Below are positions 2,608 through 30,277 of a stretch of DNA of 32,442 nucleotides, in pieces (the first letter of the stretch is position 1; every line of letters starts with the position of its first letter). The stretch is from assembly GCA_025656375.1 (NCBI GenBank), contig JAHXHU010000141.1, positions 1-32,442 on the forward strand, in the 5' to 3' direction. Both the position numbers and the translations under genes were made by a program. Source of the DNA: Candidatus Thiodiazotropha sp. (ex Ustalcina ferruginea). Lineage in GTDB: Bacteria > Pseudomonadota > Gammaproteobacteria > Chromatiales > Chromatiaceae. Under the pieces are notes generated by a model. It saw only the letters and a program-made list of their open reading frames with translations, ran no database searches and had not been told where the DNA came from.

Positions 2608-5170
2608 CTATTTCTGCTTCGATTGTAGATAGTGATGCAGTGCCTGGCACGTCACAGAAAATGTTGATGATATCTTCGCTAGCAGTTTAACTGCCATGCT
2701 CATCAAATTCGCTCTGATCAATGTTTGAGGCAACAGAACAGACTGTCTTAAGAGAGAATGCCCCTATCCCTGTAGCATTATCCGTCAAGGCATGCGCTGT
2801 ATCTCTGTACTTATGAAGACTGTGCACTTCCAATGCCTTCTGCATTAGAATCAGTAGTGCTTCACTGTCATGTAAAAAACTCTCAGCCATATTCTGTACG
2901 AAATCCGGATCCTTACTCAGTTTTTCCAAATCATTGAGTGTTTTTATATCGATTACCCGGAGGTTTTTTTCAGTGGCAGAATCCCTGGTCGGCTGATCAA
3001 TGATTGTGTCTATTGGGATATTCTTGATATCAATTCCTAATACTTGATTCACTACTTCCAACAGATGGGAAGAACGAACTGGCTTTGTAAGATAGGCACT
3101 GACTCCAACCGCATCGCACTGCTTCACCGCTTCGGTCGTTGCATTTGCAGTAAGAATCATAAATGGCATTAAAGGCTCTTTGACATGCATCGCCTGATAG
3201 GACTTTATGACTTCAATACCACCCACATCAGGCATCTGTAGATCCAATATCGCCAAATCGAATACCTGACTCTCCAGCAGAGTTAAAGCATCTTCACCAT
3301 TTTCTACAACCTCAACATAATTGCCTTGCAATTCTAATATCTTCTTTACCACCTTCTGGTTAATAAGATTGTCTTCGGCCAATAATATCCTTGCCTGTTT
3401 TGACTCACTTCGAGCTATCGACCTGAATATTTTTGGTTCGAGTTGCTGTACCTCGCTTAGTTTGCTTTTATGGGCATGTTGGAGTGCATGGTGTAGCTTC
3501 TCTGCGGAGACAGGTGGTGATATAACAGCCGTACAACCCTCTCTACAGAGCATGGCTTCTCTATCCCGGTCTTGCGCATCCTGTGTGATACAGACCAATG
3601 CAAGCTGTTCCAGGCTTTTTTCAGCCCTTATTCCGCTAACCAGCTCATTGATGGATAGACCACTCTGACTTTCATCAATAATTGCAATATTATAAAGTGC
3701 ATCCAACTTTTCTGCACTCAACAGTTCAAGCATTCCATCCGTGATGCTGTTACAAACCTTGGTTATTACCTGCCACTCCTGAAGGTAATCAAGGACAGAC
3801 TCTTGATCAGACAATAGATCGGCAAAAAGAAGGACCTTGGCCTCAGACAATTGACTCATCATAATCGATTCATCCCCGGGAATGGCTAGAATTTCAAACC
3901 AGAAACGGCTGCCCTTGCCTAGACGACTCTCCACTCCGACCTTCCCGCCCATTAACTCAACTAATTGTTTTACGATAGTAGTGCCCAGTCCACTACCGGA
4001 GTAATGGCGTGTATTTGAGTCATCCCCCTGCATAAAGGGTTCGAATATCTGTTGCAGTTGAGTCTCTGTAAGTCCTATTCCAGTATCGATCACCTCGAAT
4101 AGCAACCTTGGCTCATACTGTTCCTTTTTACTATTTGAGCGGGTGGAAATCCTCAAGGTTTTACTACCCTGATCGGTAAATTTGATTGCATTATTCAGTA
4201 AGTTAATCAGGATCTGTCGCAGCAGCTGAGGATCAGTACGAATGACCGGTGGAACCTCCACATCGATGCTACTATTCAATTTGATTGACTTGGCATCAGC
4301 TGCTGGCTGCATCATGGAGAGAACAGCATCTACCAGATGTGCAATATCTTGATCAGAAGTGGAAACTTCTACCTTGCCTGCCTCGATTTTTGAGAAGTCT
4401 AGAATATCTTCAATCAAGCTTAACAAAGTATCTGCGGAAGCCTAAATAGTCTGCATGATCTCACGTTGCTCAACTCCCATGGGGGTTCCTGCCAATAGAT
4501 CAGTCATACCGACCACTCCATTTAACGGGGTGCGGATTTCATGACTCATATTTGCCAGAAACTGACTCTTGGCCTGGCTCGCTTCCTCAGCACGCTTTTT
4601 CTCATTTTCCAAGCGTTTCAGTAGTAGTGAGACATAGAGAGATGTGACTAGAAGCCCAATGAGTAGACCAACACTTAGAACCTGCTGTTCACTCCAGAAA
4701 TCACTGATGAGAATGACAAATGAAAACCCAATAAACCCTAAAGCACTGGTTAAATAGAGTGAGGGAATCCCGAAACGAAAGCCATTTCCCAGGCTAATCC
4801 ATAGATAAAACACATATAATATCGATACGCTTTCGCCACCCATCCACATCGCCAAAGTAACCATCCCCACATCGAACAACATCGTGAATAACCGACGGAG
4901 CCGGAAATTCAAGGGTGAGATGGCAATGGCAGCTACAACAATGAATGAGACCGCTGTATAGATAAATGAAATAATGAGCAGTGTCTGTGCCTGCTCATCC
5001 GCTGGTGATTGAAGCACCAACATGACACAGTAGCTCATCATCACTAACGCAATGACCACCCTGACGAATGCCGGCTCTGACTCCCGATCCGGTGACAGTT
5101 TCAGTCGATTAATTATTATCTGCAGTTGCATGTCTGTCGTTGTTGCTATCCTGGGAATAAATGGCATCAC
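2608..5170 (-). pseudogene. RpfC-like hybrid sensor histidine kinase, broken by an amber stop and a frameshift
   Basis: The gene starts with GTG at 5170 (or ATG at 5167). About five membrane helices (residues 35-190) are followed by a HisKA H-box ([13 protein letters not shown]210). TAG at 4442-4444 then interrupts the frame. After it the same frame carries on without a gap: second HisKA helix ending DILDFSKIEAGK, HATPase N box (LLNNAIKFTDQG), G1 (DTGIGL) and G2 (GSGLGTTIVKQL), a degenerate receiver, an intact receiver (AILDLQMP, LTKPV) and an Hpt domain with its histidine (AHALTDNATGIGA). The frame stops at 2687, but shifted by one base it continues as VKLLAKISSTFSVTCQALHHY to TAG at 2608. 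Family members in this layout sense diffusible fatty-acid signals in Xanthomonas and control an HD-GYP partner; the ligand here is unknown. GAG/CAG to TAG at a usual Q position is the simplest origin of the amber codon. Confidence 0.85.
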
Positions 5171-5705
5171 CCTATGGGGTATCCCCAGGATGGATTGGGT
5201 TGTTATCCCCTGTCTTTAAGCTCTAATATGAGAATAGTATCTTATAATAAGCGTCGCCACTGGGACCATGAAGATCAAATCCTTGCATTGCATAGGTTAC
5301 AGGTTATCTATGGACCTGGCTGACTCATGAATCTTCCACTCAGGTCGACGCCTGCTCCTCACCACACAGGGTGAGAAGACTGATTCCACTATCTGAATAA
5401 ACAGCTCGTACAGTCAACGGGCAATTGTCATTTTACATCTAAGGGAAATACGACCTTGGCAATCTACTATTAAATCAAACCGCCTGGAACTAGACTAAAG
5501 TATGAAGATGGTGCGGCGGGCCGCACCCTACATGCCAGATCGATCTTCAAGCACAATAAATAAGGGCATTTCAGATTATCGAATGCAATAATGGAAGAGA
5601 AAGCTGAAAGACAGGATATATGATCTGATTAGTCAACAAGTTTGTCATAGCTGAGATTCAAGCAAGGGTCCGATATCATACTAATCAATGGCGGGGGGGG
5701 GCGAT
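5171..5705. other. 535-bp intergenic region between divergent genes
   Basis: No coding sequence is supported here. The region must hold the promoter of the RpfC-like kinase (minus strand) and of the SRPBCC gene (plus strand). Next to the kinase start lies the near-perfect palindrome GGGGTATCCCC (5176-5186). One REP-like hairpin lies at 5510-5527. A convincing -35/-10 pair could not be placed for either gene. Confidence 0.6.
5510..5527. repeat. REP-like palindrome, copy 1
   Basis: GGTGCGGC and GCCGCACC pair over eight bases (loop of two, or seven pairs with a four-base loop) and are followed by CTACAT. It is one of at least five intergenic copies of the same core in this window (10482, 13301, 13401, 19751). 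Confidence 0.75.
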
Positions 5706-6146
5706 ATGCATCAAATCATACACAGAGTCGGCATTGCTGTACCTCGCAGTGAAGTCTACAACGCATTGACCACAGATAAAGGCCTCTCCCAGTGGTGGAC
5801 GACAGATACTGCCGGTGCTGGCGATGTGGATTCTATCATTAAGTTCAGATTCGGCGGTGGTGGTCCCGATTTTACAGTGGCTGAACTCCATACTGACAAT
5901 CTCGTCAGATGGAAACATTCGGGTGAAGAGCCAAGACCCTGGATGGGTACTGAAATCTCTTTTCAACTACAGGACGATGGGGCGCAGACAATTGTTCTAT
6001 TCAAGCATTCGAACTGGCAAAAGCCGACCGATTTCATGGGACACTGCAGTACCAAGTGGGCTGTCTTCCTACTGAGTCTTAAAGATGCACTTGAAACAGG
6101 CAAAGGTAGACCGTTTCCTGATGATATCCACATAGATCACGATTGA
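5706..6146 (+). CDS. SRPBCC/AHSA1-type ligand-binding domain protein
   Basis: The protein has about 146 residues and shows the hallmarks of the SRPBCC (START-like, AHSA1/Hsp90-activator) fold. These are an N-terminal strand and helix with VYNALTTDKGLSQWW, a central set of strands with a glycine-rich turn, and a C-terminal helix beginning KWAVFLLSLKDALE. Such proteins bind hydrophobic ligands; none can be named here. The ATG at 5706 is preferred to the one at 5688 because a G-rich stretch ending four bases upstream can serve as the ribosome binding site, whereas the upstream start would translate through it. That stretch contains nine consecutive G (5693-5701), which is unusual. The gene stands alone, with about 90 bases before the thioredoxin gene. 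Confidence 0.75.
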   Translation: MHQIIHRVGIAVPRSEVYNALTTDKGLSQWWTTDTAGAGDVDSIIKFRFGGGGPDFTVAELHTDNLVRWKHSGEEPRPWMGTEISFQLQDDGAQTIVLFKHSNWQKPTDFMGHCSTKWAVFLLSLKDALETGKGRPFPDDIHIDHD

Positions 6147-6226
6147 ATACTTTCAAATTCATACTTCTGTTTACCATTTTACAGTTACAGAAACGACATA
6201 TAGACTAGATGAACTGAACTTATGAG

Positions 6227-6712
6227 ATGATAGGCACTATGGAACAAAGACTGCTTTCACTACTTCTGGTTGTACTGTTGATGCAGCCAATTCATGTACT
6301 GGCTGATGCCCCCGAAGGTTATCCCTTTGTCCCATTCTATCAAGCCATGACGCAATCACAGAGTGAATCTAAATTATTGTTCGTCTACTTCGGTCGTTAT
6401 GGCTGTGGTTATTGCGAAAAAACCAATCGAGAAGCTTTTATCGATCCAACAGTAAGGCAACGATACTCAGAGAACTATGCACTTGCCTATGTAGATGCAG
6501 AGAGTGGTCGGCGTCTACGGCTACCCAGTGGCGAGCGAATTGCAGAACGTGACCTTGGAACACGTTATCACTCCCTGGTCACACCGGTATTCACTTTCAT
6601 AAACCCTGACGGTGAGCTTGTCCACCGCATGGTTGGCGTACAACGTATCGAAGATCTGATCGATGCGGATAATAAGATCCAAGCCGCACTGTCAAAGGCA
6701 AAGCAACAATAA
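6227..6712 (+). CDS. Exported thioredoxin-fold protein (CGYC motif)
   Basis: This is a periplasmic thioredoxin-like protein of about 160 residues. A signal peptide (hydrophobic stretch LLSLLLVVLLMQPIHVLA, cleavage probably after ADA or VLA) is followed by a thioredoxin domain. The domain has the redox motif CGYC in FGRYGCGYCEKTNREAF and the cis-proline in SLVTPVFTFI. It resembles the thioredoxin_2/SoxW-like group that reduces partner proteins or tolerates periplasmic thiol chemistry. A second in-frame ATG at 6239 is equally possible and has AGG five bases before it. The stop overlaps the next start (TAATG at 6710-6714), so both exported proteins are translationally coupled and may work together. 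Confidence 0.8.
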   Translation: MIGTMEQRLLSLLLVVLLMQPIHVLADAPEGYPFVPFYQAMTQSQSESKLLFVYFGRYGCGYCEKTNREAFIDPTVRQRYSENYALAYVDAESGRRLRLPSGERIAERDLGTRYHSLVTPVFTFINPDGELVHRMVGVQRIEDLIDADNKIQAALSKAKQQ

Positions 6713-7956
6713 TGCAGATATTGATCACTGTGTTATTGTGGCTCACACCTGCGTCACTTCTTCTTGCAGAGCCTTGGCAATTCGAACATGCAGTGAATGT
6801 AACGCGTGCGGAATCGAGCACGACCCACAATATCTTTCACCATCTCGACTCATCAGGTCGACGCAATATTGCAACCTCTACGCAGGGCATTGCAGTCACC
6901 TGGGAGGATGATCGTGACGACACACCTCGTATCTATCTGGCCTTTAAAGCCAACAATGAGGACAGTTTTAAATACGAGGTTAAAATCAGTGGAGAGGGTG
7001 AAGCTTTTGAACCCTCATTGATCGCACTGGCTAACAACCGTTTTGTTGTTGCATGGGAAGAGAATAGCCAGATATTTGCACGGATGGTCGAATTCAACCG
7101 TGAGTTGCGACTAGGCCCAACAAGCATGCTCAATAAAGGCACCGCTGCGCAAGTCAGTCTGACGCAACACAAAGATAGCCTGTTTGCCTTGTGGTCAGAG
7201 CGAATGGGGCGCTATGGCCAGATTCGTTCACAGCGCTTGAGTGTCAACATTGATGGTGTATTGGAACCCGGTACCAGCTGCCCCATTGACACTGTTCCCC
7301 CTACCGATGAGCAGCTCTACCCCTCAGCCGTAATGACTGACAACCGATTAGTGGTTGCCTGGGAAGACCGCCGCCCGAAGCACACCATCATTATGGCCGC
7401 AGCTGAGCTGCCGGGAGAACCCTGTCACTTCAGTGAACCAATCCGCATCAGTGAAAAACCCGAGTCCCGCAACCTGCCTTATGGCGCAGGGCATGGTGTA
7501 TCGAGAGTTGCACTTAGTCGTTTCGGTCGTGAAGGTGTGTTCGCCGCCTGGGCTGACAAACGGGATTTTCGTGATGGTTACGATATCTGGGGTGCCGACT
7601 TCTCTTTAAGCAAGGGTGAATTCGGGACTAACGAAAAGGTGCAGGACGATTTTGGTGGACTCTCCAAACAGCGCCATGCCACAGTCGGCGGACACGCTAA
7701 GGGTATGCTCGTGGTAGCCTGGGATGATGAACGTGAGGGAAATGCCGATATCATGCTGAGCTGGCGTGAGAATGGAGAATGGAGTGAAGACTGGCCCCTG
7801 CCTGTCGCTTCCGGTGTGGGCCAGCAAAGCAATCCCAGCATTGTGCTGGATAGTGAAGGAAACCTGCATATTGCCTGGGTGGAACGTAACGCAATCGGTG
7901 CTACAACCCGATTAAAATATGCCTTCGGGAAATGGCAGGCAGATCCTGGTTTATAA
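6712..7956 (+). CDS. Exported repeat protein, probable seven-bladed beta-propeller
   Basis: The 414-residue product begins with a signal peptide (MQILITVLLWLTPASLLLA). The mature part contains seven recognisable repeats around the motif hydrophobic-x-AW-(E/D/S)-x-x-R: AVTWEDDR, VVAWEEN, FALWSERM, VVAWEDRR, FAAWADKR, VVAWDDER and HIAWVERN. Most repeats are followed by a strand. Spacing of about 45-60 residues and the count of seven suggest a beta-propeller of the sialidase/BNR type, but the Asp-box S-x-D-x-G-x-x-W is not clearly present and no catalytic residues are visible. It is coupled to the exported thioredoxin upstream. The function is unknown; binding of an extracytoplasmic protein or polysaccharide is an inference from the fold. 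Confidence 0.75.
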   Translation: MQILITVLLWLTPASLLLAEPWQFEHAVNVTRAESSTTHNIFHHLDSSGRRNIATSTQGIAVTWEDDRDDTPRIYLAFKANNEDSFKYEVKISGEGEAFEPSLIALANNRFVVAWEENSQIFARMVEFNRELRLGPTSMLNKGTAAQVSLTQHKDSLFALWSERMGRYGQIRSQRLSVNIDGVLEPGTSCPIDTVPPTDEQLYPSAVMTDNRLVVAWEDRRPKHTIIMAAAELPGEPCHFSEPIRISEKPESRNLPYGAGHGVSRVALSRFGREGVFAAWADKRDFRDGYDIWGADFSLSKGEFGTNEKVQDDFGGLSKQRHATVGGHAKGMLVVAWDDEREGNADIMLSWRENGEWSEDWPLPVASGVGQQSNPSIVLDSEGNLHIAWVERNAIGATTRLKYAFGKWQADPGL

Positions 7957-8080
7957 TTCCTGGAGCCTTTGATAGGATCGTCTTGTTGAAAAAAACCAAT
8001 CGAAAACTGGAGGGTATTGATGTTTGTAATAGCAGCCTTCCGGGCCATATCAGCGTAAATAACTTAGCCTGATATTTCTG

Positions 8081-8099
8081 CCCGGTTTCTAAAACCGGG
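8081..8099. repeat. 8-bp hairpin before rsgA
   Basis: CCCGGTTT (8081-8088) and AAACCGGG (8092-8099) form a perfect stem with a CTA loop in the gap between the propeller gene and rsgA. No T-run follows on the plus strand. It may end transcription of the upstream pair or sit in the rsgA leader. Confidence 0.45.
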
Positions 8100-8159
8100 G
8101 CACATGCCATGCCCCTGATGAGTAATTCTACTGGACGCTCTTACGCGCCAGGGGTTTCT

Positions 8160-9200
8160 ATGACACACTCATATTCTCCATCCCAATTGGGATGGCAGCC
8201 ATTTTTTCAACAACAACTCACACTTGAAGAGTGGGATCAATACGATATCGCACGTGTAGTTGCACAACACCGCTCAACAGTCGATCTACTAACAGCCACA
8301 GGCAAACAGACCTTGCCGCTAGTACCTGGAATGCCTGCCATGACAGTAGGTGACTGGATATTGCTCGATACAACAGGGAAATTTCATCGACGATTGGAAC
8401 GGTTGTCGCTATTTTCCCGTAAAGCAGCAGGAAGCAAAATATCAACTCAACTCATTGCAGCCAATGTGGACACCCTTTTTGTGGTCTGTTCACTCAATCA
8501 GGATTTTAACCTCAATCGTATTGAGCGCTATTTGGCGTTGGCGAATGACACCGATGTGGAAGCAGTTGTTGTGCTTACGAAAGCGGATTGCTGTCTTAAT
8601 CCTCAGCAATATACCCAGCAAGTGCAAATGCTTGATCCACACCTTATGGTCATTACGGTAAACAGTCTTGATCCTAGTGAGGTGAGTAAACTTGAACCTT
8701 GGTGCAGTGCAGGCAAAACGGTGGCGCTTCTCGGCTCATCCGGTGTCGGCAAATCCACACTGATCAATACCCTCGTTGGTGGCGTGGTCCAGCAGACAGC
8801 CACAATCAGGGAAGATGATGATAAGGGTCGTCACACCACAACAGGACGATCTATACATTTTTTACCAACCGGAAGCCTACTGTTGGACACACCCGGCATG
8901 AGGGAGCTACAGCTGGCCGATTGTGAGCATGGGATCATAGACACATTCAAGGAGATCAGTGATCTGGCAATCCAATGTCAATTCTCGGATTGTCAGCACC
9001 AACATGAACCCGGCTGTGCAGTCCGGTCAGGGATCGAAGCTGGAAAACTGGATGAGCGAAGGCTATCTAACTATTTCAAATTAATGCGTGAACAGAACCG
9101 CAACGGGGCAACCCTGGCTGAAAAAAGAGCGCAAGATCGTAAATTGGGTCGATACTACCGTTCTGTTCTATCTGAAGTACATCGCCGAAAAAAGAGGTAA
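8160..9200 (+). CDS. rsgA: Ribosome small-subunit-dependent GTPase A
   Basis: RsgA is a circularly permuted GTPase that acts in late 30S subunit maturation. The protein shows an N-terminal OB-fold, then G4 (LTKAD), G1 (GSSGVGKST) and G3 (DTPGM) in permuted order. A C-terminal zinc-binding segment follows with CQFSDCQHQHEPGC. The ATG at 8160 (346 residues, MTHSYSPSQLGW) is chosen because AGGGG lies six bases upstream; an upstream start at 8109 has no such site and adds a segment unlike the family. The C-terminus is basic (HRRKKR), as is common. It is the YjeQ/RsgA-like type with a W near the start rather than the classical E. coli N-terminus, so it may be a second paralogue of the genome. Confidence 0.92.
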   Translation: MTHSYSPSQLGWQPFFQQQLTLEEWDQYDIARVVAQHRSTVDLLTATGKQTLPLVPGMPAMTVGDWILLDTTGKFHRRLERLSLFSRKAAGSKISTQLIAANVDTLFVVCSLNQDFNLNRIERYLALANDTDVEAVVVLTKADCCLNPQQYTQQVQMLDPHLMVITVNSLDPSEVSKLEPWCSAGKTVALLGSSGVGKSTLINTLVGGVVQQTATIREDDDKGRHTTTGRSIHFLPTGSLLLDTPGMRELQLADCEHGIIDTFKEISDLAIQCQFSDCQHQHEPGCAVRSGIEAGKLDERRLSNYFKLMREQNRNGATLAEKRAQDRKLGRYYRSVLSEVHRRKKR

Positions 9201-9630: not shown

Positions 9631-10416
9631 GTGACCGGACTAGAACCACTTACCCAGGAACTTATCTGGATGGCCGTTCCCGGCATTCTCTTAGCCGGAT
9701 TTGTTCATGGCACCTTCGGCATCGGTTTTCCCATGGTTGCCACACCCCTGTTGGCCCTGTTTACCGATGTATTCACCGCTGTGCTTATCTGTCTGATTCC
9801 AACCATGTCGGTTAACCTGACGGTAATATGGCAGGGTGGTATTAAGCAGTTGAAGAATAGTCGCCACTATTTGCCAGTCGTCCCCTTTATCCTACTGGGT
9901 ACGGTGATTGGCTCATTTCTGTTGTTATGGCTTGATCCACGTCCCTTTTTACTGCTGCTTGCGGTTGCCATCCTGCTTTATCTTAATCAACACCGCTTAC
10001 AAGGATTGGACTTCCACTGGGTAACAGATCACCCCATCCTTGCTTATGCCATTTTTGGATTAACTGCTGGTTTGATGGCAGGCACTGTCAATGTCATGTT
10101 GCCGGTATTGATTATCCTGTTTATGGAACTTCGCATTGCTGCGGCTACGATGGTGGTCTTGTTTAATCTGAATTTCTTTACCGGTAAACTAACTCAGAGC
10201 CTGATCTTTCTACAGCAAGACCTCCCGGGTATCGGATCTTTTCTGTTAACCACCCTATGCCTGGTACCTGTTGCTCTTGTGGCTCTCTACCTGGGCATGC
10301 AACTACGTAAATGGATTACTGCTGAAAACTATATAAGCATATTGAGAAGCGTGTTGTGGTCGATGGCAGGCATATTGATTGCACGATTTCTTTATGCCTA
10401 TCTGGTCACTGCGTGA
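9631..10416 (+). CDS. TauE/SafE family permease (probable sulfite/organosulfonate exporter)
   Basis: The protein of 261 residues consists almost wholly of hydrophobic helices (about seven or eight), including the two internally repeated glycine-rich halves of the family: GFVHGTFGIGFPMVATPLLAL near residue 22 and GLTAGLMAGTVNVMLPVLII near 145. TauE/SafE proteins move anions such as sulfite, sulfoacetate or related sulfur compounds across the inner membrane; the substrate cannot be told from sequence. The GTG at 9631 gives the full first helix but has no good ribosome binding site; ATG at 9670, preceded by CAGGAAC, is an alternative. The MITE-like element lies only 47 bases upstream and may have replaced or altered the native promoter. 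Confidence 0.85.
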   Translation: MTGLEPLTQELIWMAVPGILLAGFVHGTFGIGFPMVATPLLALFTDVFTAVLICLIPTMSVNLTVIWQGGIKQLKNSRHYLPVVPFILLGTVIGSFLLLWLDPRPFLLLLAVAILLYLNQHRLQGLDFHWVTDHPILAYAIFGLTAGLMAGTVNVMLPVLIILFMELRIAAATMVVLFNLNFFTGKLTQSLIFLQQDLPGIGSFLLTTLCLVPVALVALYLGMQLRKWITAENYISILRSVLWSMAGILIARFLYAYLVTA

Positions 10417-28325: not shown

Positions 28326-30277
28326 ATGTGCGGTATAGCTGGAATAATTAACCTCAAGGATGGCACACCACCCTCCAGAAATGAACTCGAGGGTATGATA
28401 CATGCTGTCCATCACCGTGGTCCTGACGGCTATGGTTTCTTTTATCATGACAAACTTGGCCTAGCCCATGCCAGGCTCAGTATTATCGACTTGATCGGTG
28501 GTGATCAACCTATTCATAATGAAGACCAATCGGTTCAAGTGGTTTTCAATGGTGAAATCTTCAACTATCTCGAGTTGAGAGCGCAGCTCCAGAAAAAAGG
28601 CCATCGATTCTATACCCATTCCGACACTGAGGTCATTGTCCATCTCTATGAGGAACATGAAGAGGAATTTGTAAACCATCTCAACGGACAGTTTGCGATT
28701 GCTCTATGGGACAATACAAAACAGAAACTCTTACTTGCCAGAGACAGAGCCGGCATACGTCCACTGTTCACAATTGAAACGGGAGGGAGACTCTATTTCG
28801 CCTCTGAAGTAAAGTCCCTATTCTCTTCCCTCGTGAGATTAATCTGACGGCCCTGCAGGAAGTGTTCACATTCTGGACAACCCTGCCTCCTCATTCACTG
28901 TTCGAATCTGTAGAGATACTGCCACCCGGCCATTTCATGGTGATCGATAAGGGCGATAAGAGCGTGTCCAGATATTGGGACTGGTCATTTCCCAATGAAC
29001 AGATTGACAATCATAAATCGGTTACCGAATGGAGTGAGGAATTAAAGGCACTGATGGTCGACTCAGTTCGTCTACAGTTACGATCGGATGTCCCTGTCGG
29101 AGCCTATCTCAGTGGAGGCCTGGACTCTTCTGTTCTCACTTCCTTGATCAAGAACTTCACTGATACGCCACTGAGGACCTTCTCCATCGGATTCGAAGAT
29201 GAGGAATTCGATGAAAGCGGCTTTCAGAAAGACTTGGTTGATTATCTTGGTACCAAGCATACCCATGTTCTCTGCAAGCGTTCTGACATAGGCGCCGCAT
29301 TCCCAAAAGTGATCTCGCATACCGAGTCTGCCATTGTGAGAACTGCGCCGACACCCTTGATGCTGCTTTCCGGTGCGGTACGTGAAGCCGGTTATAAGGT
29401 TGTACTCACCGGGGAAGGTGCCGATGAAGTATTTGGTGGATATGATATCTTCAAGGAGGCTAAAGCAAGACGATTTTGGAGCCATGCTCCAGACTCGCAC
29501 TGGCGTCCTCTGATACTGCAGCGTCTCTATCCCTATCTGAAGCACTCACCTACAGCGAGTGGCGCATTCACTAAGCGCTTCTTCCAGCAGGGTATGGAAC
29601 ACCTCGAAAAACCCTATTTTTCACACATACCCCGATGGACTACAACTCAACGCATTTTGCAGTTCTTTTCTGATGAAGCGCGTGCAGCAGTGCCCCATCC
29701 GGTCGAGTTTGCTGCAATCAATCGCCTCCTCCCGGATGAGATCAACAGCTGGAAGCCGCTCAACAGGGACCAATATATCGAGGCCAATACGCTCCTTTCA
29801 GGATACCTGTTGAGCTCTCAGGGTGACCGCGTTGCAATGGCAAACTCAATAGAAGGAAGATTTCCTTTTCTCGACCACCGGGTTATTGAATTTGCTGCGA
29901 CGCTGCCAAGCCGTTATAAAATCATGGGATTAAATGAGAAATATATACTCAAGCACACCATGCAGGGGTTGATCCCGGAAAGCATCAGAAACCGAAGTAA
30001 ACAACCCTATCGAGCCCCAGACAATCAATCATTCTTTGTCGATGGTAAACCCCTGGAGTATGTCGCCTACCTCTTCAGTGAAGAGCGTATCCGTAAAGCA
30101 GGGTATTACAACCCCAAAACCGTCAACATGCTGATGAAAAAATGTGCCCGGGGTAAAGCGCTGGGATTTGCTGATAATATGGCCTTTGTCGGCATTCTCT
30201 CCAGCATGCTGCTCAATGAAACGATCATCGAAAAAAATGCCATTGAACCCTATAATCGCCATCAATCAAGCTGGTAG
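28326..30277 (+). pseudogene. Asparagine synthase-like glutamine amidotransferase, frameshifted
   Basis: The gene would encode about 650 residues. The first part (28326-28847) is the class II glutaminase domain with the catalytic MCGIAG start (Cys2) and the segment VVFNGEIFNYLEL. It runs to FASEVKSLF and then leaves frame. The true frame resumes near 28823 as LFPREINLTALQEVFTFW and continues to 30277 with the PP-loop SGGLDSS and the segment GEGADEVFGGYDIF of the synthase domain. The break needs one base change at about 28818-28830 (CTATTCTCTTCCCTCG), not in a long homopolymer. The family (AsnB-like, including amidotransferases of exopolysaccharide and exosortase loci) transfers ammonia to an acyl-adenylate. 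Order with an ACP and a ligase suggests a biosynthetic cassette rather than asparagine synthesis. Confidence 0.88.

Follow-up and report, generated by a model that had tools for sequence, protein, structure and literature searches.

The window analysed here is a stretch of 32,442 nucleotides, contig C5 of a 3.86-Mb assembly (genome G000). The nearest named relatives of its host belong to Candidatus Thiodiazotropha, the sulfur-oxidising symbionts of lucinid clams, and identity to the isolate LCAP3_T1 is 96%. Two ORFs are located on the forward strand at 6227-6712 and 6712-7956, exactly where a sequence-only reading had placed them. They share a TAATG stop/start overlap at 6710..6714, in which TAA occupies 6710-6712 and ATG 6712-6714, with one base in common. 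The first ORF encodes a thioredoxin-fold protein of 161 aa, designated TRX, and the second a beta-propeller of 414 aa; both products are predicted to be exported. Both ORFs were judged to be real genes since TRX matches Pfam profiles, both genes are under purifying selection (Ka/Ks about 0.1-0.2 against relatives), and homologues extend to identities as low as about 33%. Scanning 5500-8300 for promoters and terminators produced hits no more often than shuffled sequences did. Elsewhere in the window, a hybrid sensor kinase is present as two ORFs on the reverse strand (2687-4426 and 4442-5170). The related loci L104 and L105 carry a single 853-aa ORF of the same family, which suggests a frameshift or a pseudogene in the window assembly. 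An asparagine-synthase-like gene is likewise present as two consecutive forward ORFs, of which the first (28326-28847) holds the N-terminal glutaminase part and the second (28862-30277) the synthase part, possibly owing to a frameshift.

TRX (6227..6712, with an alternative ATG start at 6239) was assigned by Pfam to Thioredoxin_2/Thioredoxin_7 (Thioredoxin_2 E 6.5e-9; PF13098, 36.5 bits; PF13899, 29.9 bits; cut-off 27 for each). With a profile score above the gathering cut-off and a CxxC motif, it has both marks of a thioredoxin-fold oxidoreductase. The hydrophobic segment at its N-terminus was read as a putative signal peptide of residues 1-26 (6227..6304), ending in PIHVLA before DAP, and AlphaFold2 places a helix at residues 3-18. 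Homologue alignment identified the active-site motif CGYC at residues 60-63 (6404..6415) and a Thr-(cis)Pro motif at residues 119-120 (6581..6586). Both Cys residues of the CxxC motif are invariant in 32/32 homologues, and the two residues between them vary (GY, GW, GF, PT, NT, ST, AW, TW and GS). The cis-Pro position is occupied by Pro in all 32 homologues, preceded by Thr in 31 and by Ser in one. A Thr before the cis-Pro and a CGYC motif are features of DsbC. The solved folds closest to TRX are DsbD-gamma, DsbH and the domains of exported oxidoreductases related to cytochrome c biogenesis. The DsbD-gamma/DsbH-like fold, the CGYC motif and the Thr before the cis-Pro together point to the reductive branch for TRX. 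The alignment also revealed a family-specific stretch, ESGRRLRLPSGERIAE, at residues 92-107 (6500..6547), predicted to form a short beta-hairpin. Six of its positions are invariant (E92, R96, L99, G102, E103 and E107), and the pattern ESGxRLxLPSGERxxE distinguishes TRX from its paralogues. We infer that this stretch is a candidate interface.

The second protein (6712..7956) has a putative signal peptide at residues 1-19 (6712..6768), ending in LLLA before EPW, where AlphaFold2 predicts a helix at residues 2-17. It contains seven W-x-[DE]-x-(R) repeats between 6889 and 7896, with the Trp residues at W64, W115, W161, W217, W280, W337 and W389. The pattern [LIVFA][VFAHI][AVI][AVTL]W.[DE], which was composed after the protein had been seen, starts at residues 60, 111, 157, 213, 276, 333 and 385, and occurred on average 0.01 times, and at most once, in 10,000 shuffles. 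A seven-bladed fold had been proposed from these repeats, and the AlphaFold2 model agrees with it. Predicted from the window protein and ten relatives, the model shows seven four-stranded blades around an axis, with one repeat in each blade (pLDDT 82.9, pTM 0.86), and the N-terminal strand of residues 22-24 likely closes the last blade. Searches of Pfam, NCBIfam and PDB sequences, with the single sequence and with a profile, assigned the protein to no family. Sialidase, GH145 and CV39L lectin families gave no Pfam match above the cut-off, and the NCBIfam CV39L model scored 15.7 bits against a cut-off of 350. SBP56/MtoX has a propeller fold, and no Pfam match to SBP56 was obtained at E<=1. TcDH chains are present in the PDB, and the family profile matched no PDB chain at E<=1. 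In Foldseek, the model matched sialidase-like propellers, namely GH145-like enzymes, PL24/PL42 lyases and the CV39L lectin, with TM scores of 0.53-0.69 for the leading matches. Since identity in these matches is only 8-12%, the fold of the propeller is known but its sequence family is undescribed.

The occurrence of the two genes was examined in 22 genomes of the genus, among them G000, in 369 genomes across the class, defined as in GTDB with Betaproteobacteria inside Gammaproteobacteria, and in 399 genomes across the phylum. The pairing seen in the window held throughout: TRX is located immediately upstream of the propeller gene, on the same strand, in 38/38 loci whose contig reaches both genes. 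A stop/start overlap of -4 or -1 base is present in 31/38 of these loci, mostly as ATGA, GTGA or TTGA (-4) junctions. At one locus, in a Thiodiazotropha genome (L105, G003:C9, between 9415 and 9568), the genes are about 150 bases apart. Propeller homologues were found in 17/22 genomes of the genus, one of them (G009) with the homologue split over two contigs, and in one other genus of the host family. The five remaining genomes of the genus (G012, G014, G016, G017 and G021) lack both the propeller and this TRX. In the class sample, the propeller was found in 22/369 genomes from 15 families, and it is also present in a Betaproteobacterium MAG (L060). With the TRX profile, exactly the same 22 genomes of the class sample were recovered (E<=1.2e-62), and the best-scoring thioredoxins after them were at 1.8e-25. 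Weak partial propeller matches (E 9e-10 to 1e-3) were seen in three further genomes (G101, G246 and G321). The identity matrices of TRX and propeller over 31 loci correlated with r=0.89, a value reached in 0/2000 permutations. As the genome of the window itself was the sole match in the phylum sample, the family seems restricted to this class. A search of plasmids for the pair gave no match. A candidate 1138-aa propeller fusion at locus L089 was rejected as an upstream extension of the frame; a normal TRX gene is present there in another frame, with a 4-base overlap. The neighbours other than TRX and propeller vary between families, so that the strict pairing identifies the two genes themselves as the unit. 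At L106 (10109-10831, reverse strand), L107 and L087 (9894-10616, reverse strand), the pair has beside it a gene for an exported protein of roughly 241 aa that matches no Pfam family; these loci come from two different bacterial families, and the orientation of the gene differs. These results support the view that the pair is one genetic unit and functionally coupled.

The sequence-only reading had further raised a location near sulfur or cytochrome genes. Regular adjacency was not found, the neighbours being variable, and linkage to sulfur genes is sporadic, in isolated lineages. At L091 (10660-12615), the pair is immediately preceded by genes for a rhodanese, a DsrC-like protein and a 2OG-Fe(II) oxygenase, and this genome (G260) has dsrA at a distance of about 6 kb. 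A rhodanese gene lies upstream of the pair in L092 and L101, and in G344 dsrA is 15 kb from the pair. In two distant lineages (L060 and L090), the distance between dsbD and the pair is no more than about 1-3 kb. In no genome of the class sample was soxB seen near the pair, whose neighbours are only partly annotated; in the host itself the two are on different contigs, soxB on C94 and the pair on C5. In the clade of the window, the pair is followed by two genes that, from reading their sequences, we take to be rsgA-like and TauE/TSUP-like (9631-10416); a sulfur role for the latter would be a guess.

Co-occurrence at the genome level, in contrast to adjacency, was strong. Within the class sample, we compared the 22 pair-bearing genomes with 56 that lack the pair for four families (SoxB, DsrA, DsbD_N and DsbC_N), of which SoxB had been chosen beforehand because of the observation followed up here. 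The soxB gene was present in 21/22 pair-bearing genomes and 19/56 controls (Fisher 4e-7; 4e-5 with one vote per family, which controls for kinship only roughly). For dsrA, counted irrespective of its oxidative type, the numbers were 20/22 and 10/56 (Fisher 2e-9; 1e-6 with one vote per family). Either gene was present in 22/22 pair-bearing genomes and in 19/56 controls (Fisher 1.8e-8; 1.3e-6 with one vote per family). The pair thus marks sulfur oxidisers. However, soxB and dsrA are both present in 10/56 controls, which lack the pair, and five Thiodiazotropha genomes with soxB lack it too. This makes the pair an accessory of sulfur-oxidising physiology and not a core step.

DsbC and DsbD are near universal in the class sample. 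In 22/22 pair genomes (G000:C252 and 21 others) and in 13/56 controls, DsbD carries two tandem DsbD_N domains within a single long frame. This form was considered as a pair-specific partner and rejected, because it is also present in pair-lacking members of the host family; its occurrence follows sulfur oxidation and not the pair. Two-domain DsbD was also recorded in G035, G077, G131, G143, G155, G179, G191, G227, G251, G324 and G329. Of 41 genomes that have soxB or dsrA, 33 carry it, against 2/37 that have neither, and G032, the sole fairly complete genome of the host family seen with a single DsbD_N, also lacks soxB. Two-domain DsbD looks like a sulfur-oxidiser form of DsbD. DsbC_N is encoded by a gene of its own in 22/22 pair-bearing genomes. 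This ruled out TRX as a replacement of DsbC and indicates that TRX is an addition to general isomerisation.

It had also been proposed that TRX serves the propeller or its target. The functional coupling in this proposal stood, whereas a disulfide of the propeller itself did not hold up as the object of TRX. Homologue alignment of 31 propellers showed that Cys190 (7279..7281) and Cys238 (7423..7425) are jointly present in 15/31 and jointly absent in 16/31. As the two residues come and go together, they probably form an optional structural disulfide. In 10/31 propellers, from several families, the mature part contains no Cys at all, and the partner TRX still has its CxxC. TRX must then act on something else, and a third target is favoured over the propeller disulfide. 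A TRX dedicated to making, isomerising or reducing the disulfide of its own propeller would agree with the co-varying C190/C238 in the clade of the window and with the two cysteines that four other propeller homologues have at other places. For the family as a whole, however, such a folding catalyst is already contradicted by the Cys-free propellers, and with the general isomerase DsbC in every pair genome it is highly improbable. General housekeeping of the envelope, such as cytochrome c maturation or disulfide quality control with no tie to sulfur, would suit the relationship of TRX to exported cytochrome-c-biogenesis-related and DsbD/DsbH domains, as well as the closeness of dsbD to the pair in two lineages. 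A pair that occurs in about 6% of the class sample, where DsbC and DsbD are near universal, and that is strongly restricted to genomes with soxB or dsrA makes this explanation very unlikely.

Two further explanations place the activity in the propeller. It could bind or act on carbohydrate, in the manner of GH145, PL24, PL42 or the CV39L lectin, with envelope or extracellular polysaccharide as its substrate; TRX would then help to fold or regulate the propeller or a partner, and the link to sulfur would be ecological. The best fold matches are indeed GH145-like enzymes, rhamnose-glucuronate lyases, sialidases and the CV39L lectin, and the NCBIfam CV39L model gave its weak match. However, identity is at the level noted above in a fold common to propellers of unrelated function, the protein has no Asp-box, polysaccharide genes do not recur beside the pair, and the association with soxB/dsrA is strong. 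We regard a carbohydrate function as rather unlikely. The propeller could instead be a sulfur enzyme with a metal or quinone cofactor, similar to thiocyanate dehydrogenase (TcDH) or methanethiol oxidase (MtoX), with TRX as its maturation factor or sulfur acceptor. There are precedents in the TcDH cluster of Thiohalobacter/Guyparkeria, in which a thioredoxin-superfamily gene directly upstream is proposed to accept sulfur from TcDH (PMC6504805), and in MtoX, which is encoded beside the copper chaperone SCO1 (PMC5739008). Against a TcDH-type multi-copper site, the 31 propellers have a single invariant His (H386) and no invariant Cys or Met. The family profile and SBP56 searches gave no match, and TRX, unlike the neighbour of TcDH, retains both redox cysteines. 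A cofactor enzyme is accordingly judged improbable.

The reading that we prefer is that the two genes encode an exported redox module, characteristic of sulfur-oxidising Gammaproteobacteria, in which TRX is fed by DsbD and the propeller holds a client; we give it a probability of about 0.42. More broadly, the pair probably works as one unit on extracytoplasmic sulfur or protein thiols. The reading draws directly on the paired inheritance, the overlapping frames, the fold prediction, the invariant CxxC, the dispensable propeller cysteines and the soxB/dsrA association. TRX would be a periplasmic thiol or persulfide reductase, most likely re-reduced by DsbD, and would pass the DsbD electrons to a thiol, disulfide or persulfide client. 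The propeller would be its obligate non-redox partner, a docking surface that holds the client, or holds TRX on the client, in an arrangement that may resemble the cleft between the propeller and thioredoxin domain of NHLRC2/SOQ1. The client would most likely belong to the Sox/rDsr pathway, as a sulfur carrier in the periplasm or as stored sulfane sulfur. In symbiotic sulfur oxidisers, mostly periplasmic sulfur globules are formed via truncated Sox and oxidised via Dsr (PMC11237559), and the supply of periplasmic sulfur to cytoplasmic oxidation has been described as an unknown or poorly understood step (PMC3397948, PMC11582611). In a more specific form of the preferred reading, the propeller would attach to sulfane sulfur, either stored or bound to a carrier, and TRX, supplied by DsbD, would release or load this sulfur as a persulfide for import to cytoplasmic Dsr. 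We consider this form unlikely. If it were true, the pair would be the missing extracytoplasmic step of sulfur-globule metabolism.

The pair is conserved and appears to be undescribed. A strictly paired redox protein and nameless propeller family in 15 families of sulfur oxidisers make it a concrete candidate for a periplasmic sulfur step. In most sulfur oxidisers of the class, the N-terminal domain of DsbD is doubled, which suggests an additional set of clients for the reducing power of the periplasm.

In agreement with the sequence-only reading, which knew of no named system with this pair, a literature search found no report describing it, and the pair has the defining features of none of the systems compared here; the TcDH cluster and NHLRC2/SOQ1 are close precedents. 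TRX is closest in fold to DsbD-gamma, the C-terminal domain of DsbD, and to DsbH. However, with 161 aa it consists of the thioredoxin domain only, lacks the DsbC dimerisation domain (PF10411) and the membrane domain of DsbD, scores 18.1 bits against a cut-off of 190 with the DsbH model (NCBIfam NF043050), and has the additional E-S-G-x-R-L...G-E stretch, which sets it apart from all three proteins. SoxS is also a dedicated periplasmic thioredoxin of sulfur oxidisers, a thiol-disulfide oxidoreductase of Sox systems that binds the sulfur carrier SoxY (PMC11582611). It is encoded in soxSR/soxSRT, whereas the pair has no sox linkage and its TRX is accompanied by a propeller. MtoX (SBP56), an exported enzyme of the sulfur cycle, resembles the propeller in being encoded beside the gene of a thioredoxin-fold protein, the copper chaperone SCO1 (PMC5739008). 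There the gene order is the reverse of that in the pair, for which no MauG was seen and no Cu ligands are conserved.

In NHLRC2 and plant SOQ1, a thioredoxin domain and a propeller are joined around a conserved cleft (PMC6107167). A thioredoxin-like module and a beta-propeller work together there, as is proposed for the pair, and SOQ1 is a thylakoid-membrane protein built in this way. NHLRC2/SOQ1 is one polypeptide with a six-bladed NHL propeller and a TlpA-like thioredoxin carrying CC(I/V)NC, whereas the pair is encoded by two ORFs at every locus and has seven blades and a DsbD-gamma-like thioredoxin with CGYC or another CxxC. TcDH differs from the pair in being a Tat-exported multi-copper enzyme whose thioredoxin neighbour has no redox cysteines, whereas the CxxC of TRX is invariant. 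The pair, for its part, shows no conserved His set, no sequence match to TcDH and no recurring copper-transport neighbour. Like the propeller of the pair, TcDH has seven blades, is exported and is encoded just downstream of a gene of the thioredoxin superfamily, and its hosts too are sulfur-oxidising Gammaproteobacteria (PMC6504805). TcDH with its upstream thioredoxin-fold gene is the nearest precedent of the pair.
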